From positions 1-46,560 of the forward strand of contig JAHJFD010000044.1 of the NCBI GenBank assembly GCA_018825145.1: a stretch of 46,560 nt of DNA, read 5' to 3'. The notes below the pieces were generated by a model that was not told the DNA's origin, ran no database searches, and was given only the letters and a program-made list of their open reading frames with translations. The position numbers and the translations under genes are program-made. The number at the start of each line of letters is the position of its first letter. Within the stretch, counting starts at the first letter, position 1. This DNA is from Patescibacteria group bacterium (GTDB lineage Bacteria > Patescibacteriota > Gracilibacteria > UM-FILTER-43-11). Of this stretch, positions 4,380-35,924 are shown piece after piece.

Positions 4380-4455
4380 TGGTGGGTGTTCTGGGACTCG
4401 AACCCAGGACCAATAGGTTAAGAGCCTACTGCTCTACCAACTGAGCTAAACACCC
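4380..4455 (-). tRNA. tRNA-Lys (anticodon CTT)
   Basis: Read on the minus strand, this folds as a standard tRNA. The 7-bp acceptor stem is GGGTGTT/AACACCC, the D arm is GCTC...GAGC, and the anticodon stem is GTAGG/CCTAT with loop CTCTTAA (anticodon CTT, reading AAG). The T arm is CTGGG-TTCGAGT-CCCAG and the discriminator is A. The CCA end is encoded (complement of 4380-4382). No variable arm is present. Confidence 0.95.
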
Positions 4456-6720: not shown

Positions 6721-7154
6721 GGGGATGTATTTGGTTTTGACGTTAATGATTTAAGTTAATTGATGGCAATCCAGGCATCGCGCTGTCTGCCTGCCAATTA
6801 GCCCAGCGCATTATAAGTGCAAATACTTATAGATCTTTAGCTGCTTCTGCAAAACGAATGGCTGCAAGAGTTTCGACTCCTGCTTTCGTTCCTTTTTTTG
6901 CTTAAATAGCTATTACGCCCCGCTGAGCGGGGCTCGTCTTGCATAGCGACACCTGCTGACTGTGTAAGGCGTAATTTAGCAGGTTAAGCCCCGACGACGC
7001 CTTTGGAGGTGTCGGGGTCGAAAAAATAACCCAGATAGGCTAAGTCGCTTTTGTTCGTCTTTATGGCTTAGATGAAAATTCTAAACGAACTATGATTGTA
7101 GAGGTTTATTGACTTCATTTTCGGACCCCGGTTCGACTCCGGGCATCTCCACCA
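6721..7154 (+). ncRNA. ssrA: Transfer-messenger RNA (tmRNA)
   Basis: The 5' end GGGGATG pairs with CATCTCC at the 3' end to make the tRNA-Ala-like acceptor stem. The T arm (CCCGG-TTCGACT-CCGGG) and an encoded terminal CCA are present. With the ArfB-like protein it rescues stalled ribosomes and tags the nascent chain. The resume codon is GCA at 6819-6821. The tag frame runs through ANTYRSLAAS..., ends VPFFA, and stops at TAA 6903-6905, giving 28 encoded residues instead of the usual 8-15. A GCCCCGC/GCGGGGC hairpin follows the stop, then pseudoknot-like GC-rich segments. The total of 434 nt is long for tmRNA. The tag end resembles the FA-ending tags of mycoplasmas more than the common LAA end. 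Confidence 0.95.
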
Positions 7155-13118: not shown

Positions 13119-13217
13119 GACAGGTGATGAAACGATAAGTTGACGCGCGCTTCAAAGATATTCGAGTAAACTAATTTTGAGAGACAAGGGGGTATACCCT
13201 GGAAGGTTAGAAATTCC

Positions 13218-13272
13218 GTTGCACAAGGTTTGTGCAAGATCTGTGCAAAGTTTGTGCAAGATCTGTGCATCA
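13218..13272. repeat. 11-bp-period repeat array A (core TGTGCA)
   Basis: Five consecutive 11-bp units start at 13218, 13229, 13240, 13251 and 13262. Units 2 and 4 are identical, and units 3 and 5 are near copies. The shared core is TGTGCAa. It lies in the 240-bp spacer between the FkbM and PolX genes. There are no spacers of CRISPR type. Confidence 0.8.
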
Positions 13273-13346
13273 GAATTCAGTACTCCAAAGAGGATACCCT
13301 GACCTTGCCATTTTTTGGGTTCGCTTTTTTTGATGGTTTGTTATGG

Positions 13347-14315: not shown

Positions 14316-14397
14316 TATAATGGCTTTGCTGAAATATACGCTTTCTTATTGATCACTTTTTTTTCTTTATACATCACATTAAGGGAGTCTCATATTT

Positions 14398-14417
14398 AAT
14401 CCCGCCATGGCGGGATT
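14398..14417. repeat. Perfect 20-bp palindrome
   Basis: AATCCCGCCATGGCGGGATT is its own reverse complement. It lies between polX and the small secreted-protein gene. No T-run follows on either strand, so it could be a terminator stem, a protein-binding site or a mobile palindromic repeat. Confidence 0.7.
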
Positions 14418-14493
14418 GTGCGGACACCCACCTTGCTTATCAGGGGAAAATAATGTGCATATAAGGGCGGTATTTTGGCTTTTTAGGTAGTTA

Positions 14494-18788: not shown

Positions 18789-18866
18789 GGGCAACATTGC
18801 CCCAACAATGCTGGAAAATTGCTAGGTCAATGTGTCTTCTTTTATGGTGTCATTGATATATCAATG
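18789..18866. repeat. 11-bp-period repeat array B (core CATTG/CAATG)
   Basis: CATTG or CAATG-like cores end at 18799, 18810, 18821 and 18832, exactly 11 bp apart. After a degenerate unit, CATTG (18851-18855) and CAATG (18862-18866) resume 11 bp apart with a 1-bp shift. Located in the convergent spacer between pheT and the SLH gene. Confidence 0.7.
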
Positions 18867-18901
18867 ATGACTTTTTTTGATATGGAAGAGGCTCGCCTTT
18901 T

Positions 18902-26995: not shown

Positions 26996-27916
26996 ATGAA
27001 GTTATCCGAGGCCATCAGGCAGTTTTTGGAGCACTGTGAGATTGAAAAAAATCAGTCCAAGCGAACGCTGGTGAATTATCAGCATTATCTGGAACGGTTT
27101 TTGGAGTTCGCCAAAGACGTTGAGCTTTCGAAAATCGATTTGGGACTGGTGAAGCGCTATAGGCTTTTTCTGAATCGCTATGAGTTTCGCCCGCATGAGC
27201 CGCTTTCTGTTAAAACGCAAAACTACCACATAATTGCGCTGAGGGCTTTTTTGAAATACTGCGTTAAGCAGGATTGGAAGACGCTGGAGCCGGAGAAGAT
27301 TGAACTTAGCAAAATTCCGGACCGCACTGTGGAATACCTGACGCGTGATGAGCTGGAACGGCTTTTTGAAGCCGTAGATACGAGCACGATTGTCGGCCTT
27401 AGGAACCGGGCAATTATGGAATTTTTGTATTCGACAGGTCTGCGTATCAGTGAATTGGTGGCGCTTAATCGTGACCAGATAAATCTGGAACGGGGTGAAT
27501 TTCAGGTGCGCGGAAAGGGCAGGAAAATGAGAATTGTGTTTTTGTCAGGGCGGGCAAAGGAGTGGGTTTGTGATTACCTGGAGGCGAGGGACGACGGTTA
27601 TGAACCTCTGTTTTTGAATCATCGTCGGGCACGGGGGAAAAAGGCGGGGGCAGTTGAAATGAAAGGCGAACACCGCCGGCTGACCGAGTACACGATTCAG
27701 GAAATGGTTCGCCGTACGGCTTATGAAGCGGGTATTGTAAAAAAAGTAACACCCCATGTCCTTCGTCATTCCTTCGCCACTGAGCTTTTGATAAACGGTG
27801 CTGACATACGCAGTGTGCAGGACATGCTGGGCCACGCAAGCATCACGACGACCCAAATTTACACTCATCTGACTAACAAGAAACTTCGGGAAATTCATGA
27901 GAAGTTTCATAGATAA
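26996..27916 (+). CDS. Tyrosine recombinase of the XerC/XerD type
   Basis: 306 residues, the normal Xer length. The N-terminal SAM-like core-binding domain (1-95) precedes the catalytic domain with Arg about 150 (STGLRISELVAL), the beta-hairpin Lys in GKGRKMRIV, HVLRHSFATELL (His about 254, Arg about 257), LGHASITTTQIYTH (His about 280) and the nucleophile Tyr about 288. It could resolve chromosome dimers as the single Xer of a reduced genome, or serve an integrated element. Housekeeping is favoured because it resembles full-length Xer proteins and no att sites are seen. Confidence 0.92.
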   Translation: MKLSEAIRQFLEHCEIEKNQSKRTLVNYQHYLERFLEFAKDVELSKIDLGLVKRYRLFLNRYEFRPHEPLSVKTQNYHIIALRAFLKYCVKQDWKTLEPEKIELSKIPDRTVEYLTRDELERLFEAVDTSTIVGLRNRAIMEFLYSTGLRISELVALNRDQINLERGEFQVRGKGRKMRIVFLSGRAKEWVCDYLEARDDGYEPLFLNHRRARGKKAGAVEMKGEHRRLTEYTIQEMVRRTAYEAGIVKKVTPHVLRHSFATELLINGADIRSVQDMLGHASITTTQIYTHLTNKKLREIHEKFHR

Positions 27917-28500: not shown

Positions 28501-28544
28501 TCATTATTAATCCGTTAATAACCGGTTAACAATGGGTTAATAAC
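28501..28544. repeat. 11-bp-period repeat array C1 (core TTAATAA)
   Basis: Four consecutive 11-bp units start at 28501, 28512, 28523 and 28534. The core is TTAATAAC or its inverted form ATTATTAA. A related partial unit follows. Confidence 0.8.
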
Positions 28545-28577: not shown

Positions 28578-28632
28578 GTTAACATTAGTGGAACATTGGT
28601 GGGTCAATGGTGGATCAATGATGGCAAAAAAG
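28578..28632. repeat. 11-bp-period repeat array C2 (core ACATTGG/TCAATGG)
   Basis: Units of 11 bp start at 28578, 28589, 28600, 28611 and 28622. The middle ones share a TGG(N)nCAATG or CATTG core, the same words as arrays B and D2. Confidence 0.8.
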
Positions 28633-32863: not shown

Positions 32864-34201
32864 TTATTTATTAATCCTTTTGATAAACTCCTCCGCCTCC
32901 TTCTTTGTCTTCACCTCACCCTCAATTTGAGCTTCGCGGAGGGCGTTTAGCAGGTCCTGAATCGCGGGGCCGGGCTTGAGGCCGGTGAGTTTCATGATCT
33001 CGTCGCCGTTGAGTTTGGGTTTGAAGTGGTCTTCGAGGAGTTTTTCATCTTTGAACTCTGTGTAGAGCTTAATGATCTCTTCATACAATTTCATATCGGC
33101 AGGCACGCTTCCCTTTTCGTCACACCAGTGAAGGCGCATGAGATCTTCGAACCAGGGGTGCAGAAAGAGATTTACCTGATGGATGCGCTTCATTTTTGGA
33201 ATAAAGCCAACGGTCATGTGATGGTCAATGAGCCAGCATATTTTGGTGACCATGGCTTTTGGGAATTTGAGGCGAATGAGGATACTGCGGGCGATTTGAG
33301 CGGAAAGCTCTGCGTGGCCGTCGAAGTGGATACGGTCGGGGCGCAGTTCGAATTTGGCCGGTTTGCCGATGTCGTGTAAAAAAACCGCCCAGCAGAGTTC
33401 AAGCGTGGCCCAATCTTTGGGTATATCGTGGAGCGACTTGAAAGAGTGGGTGAGTACGTCACCTTCCTGATGGAAGCGGACGGGCTGGGCCACGCCTTTT
33501 TCAGCCAAAACTTCAGGCATGATGTGCTCAAAAATACCGAATTTTTCAAGCTCACGGAAGCTGTGGGCGCGGCGTGGATGGAGGATCATCTTATTGAGTT
33601 CATCGGCCACGCGTTCTCTGGAGATATCTTTGAGCAAATGGGCCAGTTCTTTGATAGCGGCTTCCGTGCGGGAATCATATTCAAAGCCAAGATTGTTACT
33701 GAAACGGATGGCACGGAGAATACGCAGGTGATCTTCTTTAATGCGTTCGTGGGGTTCGCCGATAAAACGGATGATTTTGTTTTTGATGTCGTCCTGACCG
33801 CTCACGTAGTCGATAACTTTTTTAGCGATGGGATCGTAAAAAAGTCCGTTAATAGTGAAGTCACGGCGCACCGCGTCTTCTTTGGCAGAAGTAAAAAGCA
33901 CCGCATCGGGCCGGCGGCCGTCGGAATATGAGGAGTCGGAGCGGAAGGTGGCGATTTCAAAAGCGTGGCCGTGCACAATGCCCAGCATAACCCCGAACTG
34001 CTTGCCGATGGGGATGGTTTTGGATTCCAGATGGATTGCATCGACGATTCTTTCGATTTCGTCGGGTGTGGCGGAAGTGGCAATGTCGTAGTCTTTGGGT
34101 TCGCGTTCCATTAAAAGGTCGCGCACTGAGCCGCCCGCAAAATAGGCTTCGTAACCTGCCTTTTGGAATGCCTTGACGATTTTGATGGCCGTATTTTCCA
34201 T
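32864..34201 (-). CDS. cca: CCA-adding tRNA nucleotidyltransferase with HD domain
   Basis: A 445-residue class II nucleotidyltransferase. The catalytic GGSVRDLL (from residue 23) and DYD (D37, D39) bind the two metals. The neck RRDFTINGLFYDP and an RILRAIRFS segment follow, and an HD phosphohydrolase domain (FLHDIGKP, about 275) lies in the C-terminal half. It adds or repairs the CCA end of tRNAs; the single tRNA seen here already encodes CCA, so repair may dominate. A poly(A) polymerase role is the alternative, since the two families are close. It is 45 nt upstream of dnaE on the same strand. Confidence 0.93.
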   Translation of the reverse strand: MENTAIKIVKAFQKAGYEAYFAGGSVRDLLMEREPKDYDIATSATPDEIERIVDAIHLESKTIPIGKQFGVMLGIVHGHAFEIATFRSDSSYSDGRRPDAVLFTSAKEDAVRRDFTINGLFYDPIAKKVIDYVSGQDDIKNKIIRFIGEPHERIKEDHLRILRAIRFSNNLGFEYDSRTEAAIKELAHLLKDISRERVADELNKMILHPRRAHSFRELEKFGIFEHIMPEVLAEKGVAQPVRFHQEGDVLTHSFKSLHDIPKDWATLELCWAVFLHDIGKPAKFELRPDRIHFDGHAELSAQIARSILIRLKFPKAMVTKICWLIDHHMTVGFIPKMKRIHQVNLFLHPWFEDLMRLHWCDEKGSVPADMKLYEEIIKLYTEFKDEKLLEDHFKPKLNGDEIMKLTGLKPGPAIQDLLNALREAQIEGEVKTKKEAEEFIKRINK

Positions 34202-34219: not shown

Positions 34220-34248
34220 ATTATAGCAAAAAACCTATTATTAACCCA
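34220..34248 (-). promoter_or_regulatory. Promoter of cca, overlapping repeat array D1
   Basis: Minus strand: TATAAT (complement of 34220-34225), 18 nt before the ATG, with TGGGTT 17 nt upstream (complement of 34243-34248). The -35 region lies in the first units of array D1. Confidence 0.45.
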
Positions 34249-34288
34249 TTATTAATGGGCTATTAATAGATTATTAATGTGCTAATAG
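34234..34288. repeat. 11-bp-period repeat array D1 (core ATTATTAA)
   Basis: Units of 11 bp start at 34234, 34245, 34256, 34267 and 34278. The first four end in TATTAA; three have ATTATTAA. It lies in the divergent spacer between cca and the aminopeptidase gene. Confidence 0.85.
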
Positions 34289-34300
34289 TGTCTAAAAGAG

Positions 34301-34344
34301 CATCATTGACTGATCAATGCTCCATCAATGCCGGGTCAATGACA
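34301..34344. repeat. 11-bp-period repeat array D2 (core TCAATG)
   Basis: Four consecutive 11-bp units start at 34301, 34312, 34323 and 34334. Three carry TCAATG and the first carries TCATTG, close to the inverted form. Paired with D1 as C1 is with C2. Confidence 0.85.
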
Positions 34345-34424: not shown

Positions 34425-35924
34425 ATGATGACTGCCCAGGATATACTCAGACTGACTGAACCCAAGAACCAGAATTTGCCTGAAATAAACGCTGATTCGA
34501 GTTTTAAGAAGTATGATCTTGTTTTTGTGCCGGTATTTGAGGAATCGGTGAAAAATGTTGAGAAGATGTTTCCTTCCCTTAAAAAACTCAAATTGAAGGG
34601 TGAAAAGAAGGAGTCTCATGATGTGGTTGAAGGCGGGCAAATTTTGAAAGTTCGTGGAATGGGCAAAAAATCCGAAATGAATAACCGAAAAATCAGGCGT
34701 ATGTTCGGCGCGTTTTATCTGAGCGGGGAAGCGGCAAAGGCAAAGAAGATCGGGATAATCTGCGACGAACTGGATTGGATTTATTTTGCCGCACTGGCGG
34801 TTCATGTGGCGGCGCTGAATCCGGATATTTTTAAGTCAAAATCGAAGCCGGAAAAGGCGCCGGAAGTGGCTTTGATAAATTCTTCTTTCAAGGCCAAGGC
34901 GACGGCTGTCAAAAAGGAGATCGGACGAGGAATCAATATGGCGGAGGGTAAGAATCTGATGCGTGTACTCGGGGCTACGCCGCCCAATAGCCTGGGAACG
35001 GAAATGTATGCCAAAGTTATCGAGATGCTCTGCAAAAAGTGGGGTGTGAAGTGTAAGAACGTGGCGAAGAAAGACCTGAAGAAATACGAACTGCTAAACG
35101 CGGTGTCGGAGGGCAGCGGTCATGATTCAAAGCTTCTTGTGATTACCATTCCGGTGGCTGGAAGTAAAAAATCGACAGTAGTTGTGGGCAAAGGGCTTTG
35201 TTACGACTCAGGCGGTGTTCAGGGAAAAGGCTCTCACATGAAATCCATGAAGGAAGATATGTCCGGAAGCGCTAGTGTTCTGGGCGCCATTTTAAACATC
35301 AAAAAGAACGGACTGAAGCTGAAACAGACGACACATTTTCTGCTTCCATTAGCCGAAAACATGATGGGGAGCCGTGCCATGCGCGCCGATGATGTTTGGA
35401 CGGCCGGTGACGGTCAGACGGTCGAGGTGATCCATACCGATGCCGAGGGGCGCCTGGTGATGAGCGACGCCATCTGTTACGCCAAAAATAATTTTAAAGA
35501 CATTGATCAGATTTATACCATCGCCACCCTTACAGGTAGTTGTATCGTGGCTCTGGGTGAAGTGTATACGGGATGTATGTGTAACGATGATAAGCTTAAG
35601 GAAGAAGTGGTAAAGGCAGGCAAAACTAGTGGTGAGCTGGTTTTTCCGGGCCCCTGGGACGAAGAGTTTGACGACAATAATTCACCCATTGCCGATGTCG
35701 CCAATCTGGGAGAAAAAGACCGGGATGCCGGCTGGATCAAGGCAGCCTTCTTCCTGGCCCGTTTTGTGCCTAAAGACAAAAAGACCGGAAAACATACGGC
35801 TAAGTTCTGCCACTTTGATATCGCCGGAACTATTGATATGAAAGGTGCCGGTGCCGCTCATCGTCGCAAGGGTTTTAATTCCGGTGTGGTAGTGGGCTAT
35901 CTGTCTTTATTGCTTACCAAGTAA
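34425..35924 (+). CDS. pepA: Leucyl aminopeptidase, M17 family
   Basis: A 499-residue dizinc aminopeptidase removing N-terminal residues from peptides. The N-terminal macro-like domain spans about 1-160. The catalytic domain has VVVGKGLCYDSGGVQGKG (metal-binding Lys about 256 and Asp about 261), MKEDMSGSA, and the family signature HTDAEGRLVMSDA (about 339-351; NTDAEGRL in most members). Length is normal for a hexameric M17 enzyme. It starts at ATGATG without SD. No neighbour shares its direction before the 36-kb locus. Confidence 0.93.
   Translation: MMTAQDILRLTEPKNQNLPEINADSSFKKYDLVFVPVFEESVKNVEKMFPSLKKLKLKGEKKESHDVVEGGQILKVRGMGKKSEMNNRKIRRMFGAFYLSGEAAKAKKIGIICDELDWIYFAALAVHVAALNPDIFKSKSKPEKAPEVALINSSFKAKATAVKKEIGRGINMAEGKNLMRVLGATPPNSLGTEMYAKVIEMLCKKWGVKCKNVAKKDLKKYELLNAVSEGSGHDSKLLVITIPVAGSKKSTVVVGKGLCYDSGGVQGKGSHMKSMKEDMSGSASVLGAILNIKKNGLKLKQTTHFLLPLAENMMGSRAMRADDVWTAGDGQTVEVIHTDAEGRLVMSDAICYAKNNFKDIDQIYTIATLTGSCIVALGEVYTGCMCNDDKLKEEVVKAGKTSGELVFPGPWDEEFDDNNSPIADVANLGEKDRDAGWIKAAFFLARFVPKDKKTGKHTAKFCHFDIAGTIDMKGAGAAHRRKGFNSGVVVGYLSLLLTK

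Follow-up and report, generated by a model that had tools for sequence, protein, structure and literature searches.

The spacer between cca and pepA on a contig of an uncultured Patescibacteria group bacterium carries short words that return every 11 bp, which raises the question of what kind of element this is and what might read it. The window, i.e., the whole 46,560-nt stretch analyzed here, is contig C51 of genome G000 (1.16 Mb, 93% complete), whose size and gene content make an assignment to Patescibacteria/CPR plausible; two further genomes, G001 and G002, represent species of the same genus. An earlier note had described nine units in two blocks with an 11-bp period, and this description stood (D1 and D2; Table 1) with a small correction: D1 and D2 lie 21 bp apart (center to center), which is no multiple of 11, and they are therefore two separate elements, not one continuous array. 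The best lag-11 sites within the window were 34232, 13208, and 28581. As for the other places where the same layout had been reported, the 28.5 kb locus is indeed a pair, whereas the 13.2 kb element belongs to a second superfamily (S2) and the 18.8 kb array is weak. The window also contains a XerC/D-like tyrosine recombinase gene (26996-27916), one gene upstream of the 28.5 kb paired arrays, and Rfam matches to tmRNA (6721-7154), 6S RNA (14323-14485), and tRNA (4383-4455).

Table 1. Arrays, words, and flanking genes in the 46,560-nt window
Feature	Position	Strand	Description
D1	34236..34290	.	S1 array upstream of cca; five words: TTATTAA (x2), CTATTAA, TTATTAA, CTAATAG
D1 words	34238-44, 34249-55, 34260-66, 34271-77, 34282-88		exact 11-bp pitch
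D2	34303..34341	.	S1 array; four words: TCATTGA, then TCAATG (x3); 11-bp pitch
D2 words	34303-09, 34314-19, 34325-30, 34336-41
D1-type array, 28.5 kb pair	28504..28543	.	S1 array; TTAWTAA words
D2-type array, 28.5 kb pair	28583..28620	.	S1 array; words CATTA, CATTG, TCAATG (x2)
S2 cassette	13214..13275	.	62 bp; TTGYRCAA words, inverted arms
Weak S1 array	18795..18832	.	four words; between convergent genes
TCATTGA/TCAATGA pair	18850-18867		after the weak 18.8 kb array
cca	32864..34201	-	tRNA nucleotidyltransferase (Pfam PolyA_pol); flanks arrays
pepA	34425..35924	+	Peptidase_M17; flanks arrays

We scanned 438 kb of G000 (a 38% sample of the genome), plus samples of its relatives, for stretches with at least 22 of 33 matches at lag 11. 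Sixteen stretches passed in the 438 kb of G000, compared with 0 in local shuffles, and lags of 10, 13, 16, 17, 19, 20, and 23 gave 0 to 1 passing stretches each in the same DNA; lags divisible by 3 reflect codons, and lag 7 reflects a separate repeat type. Arrays of this 7-bp type, such as AATTTACAATTTAC, are abundant in other genera of the family, with 29 in 100 kb of G009 (loci L279-L281, L363, and L364 in G009; L240-L249 in G003; L373 and L374 in G013). The pattern TCAATG-N5-TCAATG (at most 1 mismatch) matched 20 + 20 times genome-wide in G000, compared with 0 + 1 matches for the reversed pattern; the TTAATAA pattern with 2 mismatches stayed at control level away from the two window loci, and a GTDB pattern scan returned scattered, chance-like matches only. 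The lag-11 signal is thus stronger than in shuffled DNA, the arrays recur elsewhere in G000 and in related genomes, and the fixed 11-bp pitch with changing words that had been claimed was borne out.

The elements number in the dozens, are dispersed and intergenic, and consist of four to six (usually five) near-palindromic words of 6 to 8 bp, separated by spacers of 3 to 5 nt and enclosed by inverted arms. Those of superfamily S1 usually have five words around YAWTR (word types CAWTG, CTAWTAG, and TTAWTAA) and arms like GGCAAYATT, and those of S2 are 62-bp cassettes (TTCTG(A/T)TGC...GCATCAGAA) with five words, either TTGYRCAA or TGGCGCCA, with no cassette seen to mix the two and one copy shorter by one unit (51 bp). 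Both superfamilies also share a less strict outer arm that reads roughly GGNATAYC and then CTTTTTGG. The S1 unit is symmetric (RNYAWTRNY), and its ±4 positions show symmetric R/Y with no covariation as base pairs, a combination that points to a putative symmetric protein (dimer) on duplex DNA. The elements occupy spacers of every gene orientation (24 tandem, 14 divergent, and 11 convergent array-bearing spacers; 157, 83, and 29 other spacers, respectively) and are therefore not promoter-specific; a role tied to the cca promoter, which the array had been noted to overlap, is doubtful because such elements are also found where the flanking genes are tandem or convergent. The earlier note did not include the inverted arms, the division into two superfamilies, the homogenized S2 cassettes, or the rhh genes (see below). 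G000 also contains a third small array type with GATGTTCAA arms and 11-bp AATATGG units (L052:2378-2435 and L063:721-777), and an 11-bp array of DnaA-box-like TTTTCCACA/ATTTCCACA words (L061:15338-15404, on contig C44), which is a possible replication origin.

The three species have arrays in register at shared orthologous loci, yet each species uses words of its own. Specifically, the sufC-sufB spacer holds CAATG words in G000, CTAATAG in G001, and TTAATAA in G002, and the D1 words at cca-pepA are TTATTAA in G000 versus CTAATAG-type in G001, in register and with five units each; no D2 array was found in this orthologous spacer of G001. Similarly, purH shows CATTG versus TATTA words between species, the 28.5 kb D1-type array (TTAWTAA in G000) has CTATTAG words in its G001 orthologue, and the spacer orthologous to the 18.8 kb array has TTATTAA words in G002. 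The idea that core words change together was thus supported, as orthologous spacers switch all their words, with the register kept at sufC-sufB, cca-pepA, purH, and the S2 loci. Genome-wide, CTAWTAG arrays occupy ~ten loci in G001 but are absent from G000 and G002, TTAWTAA arrays occupy two loci in G000 and two in G002 (the only genomes of the genus to have them), and the TCAATG triple is, within the genus, confined to G000. Every S2 orthologous locus was occupied (five loci shared by the three species, and L314/L234 shared by two), with words that differ between species at most of them. Both S2 word types are present in G000, which appears mixed, and the three sister genomes hold different word states.

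Next to this divergence between species stands homogeneity within them. Including spacers, S2 cassettes averaged 91% identity within G001 and 90% within G002, compared with 67% between orthologues, 70% for other between-genome pairs, and 72% within the mixed-word G000, and the outer arms were 62% to 67% identical everywhere (random, 54%). The nearest neighbor lay in the same genome for 20 out of 28 cassettes (20.3 tie-aware versus 8.8 shuffled, with 0 of 1,000 shuffles as high) and was the orthologue in 1 out of 15. Since S2 spacers are identical too, copying is needed and binding alone does not suffice. For S1, inner units of different G000 arrays were 94% to 100% identical at word positions (77% at the central A/T), whereas outer spacer positions between these arrays were 30% to 33% identical, i.e., near random. 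The S1 words are therefore under selection, and copying alone is insufficient to explain them.

The candidate readers of these words are small ribbon-helix-helix (RHH) DNA-binding proteins. An S1 array lies directly before an rhh gene in G000, G001, and G002, with comM upstream (recognized in G002 from C-terminal sequence only) and RNase J (rnj) downstream, and the rhh ATG falls inside the last S1 word in G000 and G002 and almost directly after it in G001. RHH_1 matched once in G000, at C44:3782 immediately after the S1 array, and once in G001, at C56:3144 immediately after a CTATTAG array; the S1-RHH proteins of G000, G001, and G002 scored 25.8, 26.0, and 30.9 bits, respectively, against this Pfam family (cut-off, 20.5), and among solved structures they are closest to NikR RHH domains (E-value of 0.006). 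In both G001 and G002, ~100 bp separate an S2 array from a divergent rhh-like paralogue; in G002, the array is placed between the paralogue and dprA. This paralogue has no Pfam RHH match, is matched by a local profile of the S1 proteins with E-values of 2e-4 and 0.013, and was not found in the sampled part of G000. In total, ~ten RHH-like genes were seen, five of which lie no more than 200 bp from an array (chance of ~0.013 per gene, a rough, post hoc estimate) and two of which have no array (L060 in G000 and L287 in G002). No reader could be assigned to the TTAWTAA arrays, which counts against RHH reading, as do the two RHH-like genes that have no array. The two genes without an array (L060:18000-18323, on G000 contig C42, and L287:5063-5335, on G002 contig C4) fall in the same RHH-like group and are possible readers of TTAWTAA arrays.

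We also aligned the S1 and S2 proteins to CopG and NikR and compared the residues at the three beta-strand positions expected to contact bases. The predicted contact residues of S1-RHH are T-S-V in G000 (CAWTG words), V-S-T in G001 (TAWTA), and T-S-T in G002 (CAWTG words at its rhh), and those of the S2 paralogue are R-H-F in G001 (TTGYRCAA) versus R-H-R in G002 (TGGCGCCA). That the predicted residues differ in step with the words is suggestive (n = 5 proteins).

We consider it probable, judging from these sequence features, that the 11-bp arrays are multi-site platforms read by RHH proteins, with words that co-evolve. In the mechanism we infer, each near-palindromic word would take one symmetric RHH dimer, and the one-turn pitch would place four to six dimers next to one another along the same face of the DNA; alignment of bound proteins on one face, proposed at the outset, is retained as the best reading of the 11-bp pitch. 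The RHH protein whose gene stands between comM and rnj would read the S1 words, the divergent RHH-like paralogue would read the S2 words, and the same platforms would serve at tens of intergenic sites. The S1-RHH protein probably autoregulates, because an S1 array contains or borders the start codon of its gene. A shift in protein specificity, or takeover of a site by a paralogue, would lead to rewriting of the words at each site, and gene conversion or reinsertion would be the copying that homogenizes S2 cassettes within a genome.

The same features could be read as MITE-like non-autonomous transposons, with the arms as ends, the words as sites for a transposase acting in trans, and the dialects as subfamilies. 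Inverted arms are present, near-identical S2 cassettes occur at several loci of one genome, occupancy differs between species at a few loci (C25, D2 at cca, and G002 L297), and BrickBuilt, a MITE with an internal minisatellite, provides a precedent for tandem units between inverted ends (PMC4596501). However, two or more species carry elements at several S1 loci and in six S2 orthologous groups, which weakens the idea of recent insertion. The identity seen within the inner 62 bp also does not extend into the outer arms, S1 words are kept and their spacers randomized, the Y1 transposase is absent from the genus genomes, and we saw neither an autonomous copy nor a clear target duplication, with few presence/absence loci available and spacers too diverged to show duplications; overall, this reading is unlikely. 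Repeats that are neutral, lack a reader, and evolve solely through gene conversion would agree with the strong within-genome homogenization of S2, spacers included, but not with conservation of the S1 words against randomized spacers, the all-or-none switching of words in register at an unchanged pitch, or the rhh genes that adjoin arrays, and we find this account improbable.

Structured RNA or single-stranded hairpins acting in mRNA stability or termination would suit the inverted arms and the intergenic position, and S2 cassettes, as single strands, fold far better than shuffles (z of -4.2 and -6.2). In contrast, S1 arrays reached z of only -0.3 to -2.4, with the D2-type not clearly better than shuffles; the ±4 positions of S1 do not covary as base pairs, the exit side has no T-run, Rfam gave no match at the arrays, and hairpins would not need five words changing together, all of which leaves this explanation quite improbable. 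Another reading is that a known regulator with 11-bp repeats, of the PhoB/OmpR or CarH/MerR type, uses the arrays as ordinary operators. The PhoB family binds 11-bp direct repeats. CarH does so as well (PMC9304148). Neither family has repeats that are near-palindromes, and the arrays here also lie between convergent genes. Moreover, Trans_reg_C (PF00486) is absent from G000 and G002, and MerR_1 (PF13411) is absent from G001 and G002, with one partial match in G000. Because these families are absent in array-bearing genomes (90% to 95% complete), such operators are largely refuted, and we regard them as highly improbable.

How do RHH-read arrays compare with known systems? MetJ-, omega-, and CopG-type RHH operators are tandem short palindromic boxes, each bound by one dimer, and function in autoregulation; to our knowledge, genome-wide word switching between species is not known for them. 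The arrays resemble these operators in their tandem short palindromic words, the proposed dimer on each, and the proposed autoregulation, but differ in period (11 bp here, 8 bp for MetJ, and 7 bp for omega), and the known regulators have few operators. The statement that no family with an 11-bp period has been described does not hold, as ParR of plasmid R1 (PMC9426499) and CarH (PMC9304148) bind 11-bp direct repeats. In CarH/CarA operators, the protein binds three to five 11-bp repeats in tandem along a single face of the DNA (PMC9304148), but these are direct, non-palindromic (nnnnTnnACAn), and located at promoters, whereas the words here are near-palindromes and two of the three genomes lack MerR_1. 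As in ParR-parC (type II partition), an RHH gene lies beside an array of short repeats spaced near one helical turn, and repeat sequences likewise differ among Clostridium perfringens ParMRC families, with no cross-recognition (PMC9426499); unlike ParR-parC, tens of arrays are spread over the chromosome, with near-palindromic words between inverted arms, and no ParM match was found among the scanned array-rhh neighbors (comM, rnj, and a prepilin peptidase gene; purM and dprA). Putatively RHH-read arrays with co-evolving words are a variant of the ParR/MetJ binding mode, a description that replaces that of an unknown family. Like REP/BIME/REPIN elements and BrickBuilt, the arrays are dispersed, intergenic, palindromic, and homogenized within a genome; unlike REP/BIME/REPIN elements and MITEs, they have no Y1 transposase, share many loci among several species, show word-level selection at an 11-bp pitch, and have an rhh gene beside an array. 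Two other candidates were rejected: REPIN/RAYT, as PF01797 (Y1 transposase) is absent from G000, G001, and G002, and the TIGR array, which has alternating 8-12 nt repeats and 9-nt spacers beside a Nop-domain gene (PMC12045711), compared with 6-8 bp words, 3-5 nt spacers, and flanking genes without a Nop domain in the window.

Beyond this genus, three more genera within the family have non-palindromic 11-bp arrays (CGNATNGAC and similar), several with mirror-image halves. The sampled stretches of these genera contained no RHH of this type, a point against RHH reading; several genera had no 11-bp arrays in the stretches sampled. Units of CGNATNGAC or CTAATNGAY (11 bp, mirror-image halves) were located at L242, L247, and L249 (G003), L273 (G014), and L366 (G017), and the G003 contigs of L244 and L247 start inside mirror-image 11-bp arrays. 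Among 18 genomes, the S2 arm pattern was limited to this genus, with single chance-level matches elsewhere.

Arrays flank many housekeeping genes and also adjoin comM, dprA (in G002), comEC, pilB (T2SSE), and pilC (T2SSF), as well as a metallo-beta-lactamase gene that may be ComEC-like; in G000, ~five DNA-uptake-type genes lie near arrays versus one expected (a rough, post hoc estimate). A regulon, a link to DNA uptake or competence, a nucleoid or partition-like function, and a combination of these are all candidate roles. Since rhh lies by comM and dprA, and arrays lie beside pilB, pilC, and comEC, the system may organize the chromosome or govern DNA uptake/recombination. Tentatively, two small RHH proteins might read chromosome-wide arrays with species dialects, their specificity and the arrays changing together through co-evolution and gene-conversion-like copying, and in this way serve such a role. 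Orthologous arrays rewritten in register represent a natural series for a change of protein-DNA recognition across a genome, and they make it testable how a regulator changes specificity without losing its targets. Such a system would account for short intergenic repeats of a kind that readily escapes notice and would provide, in a little-known group of bacteria, a concrete candidate for a protein that organizes DNA genome-wide or is linked to competence.
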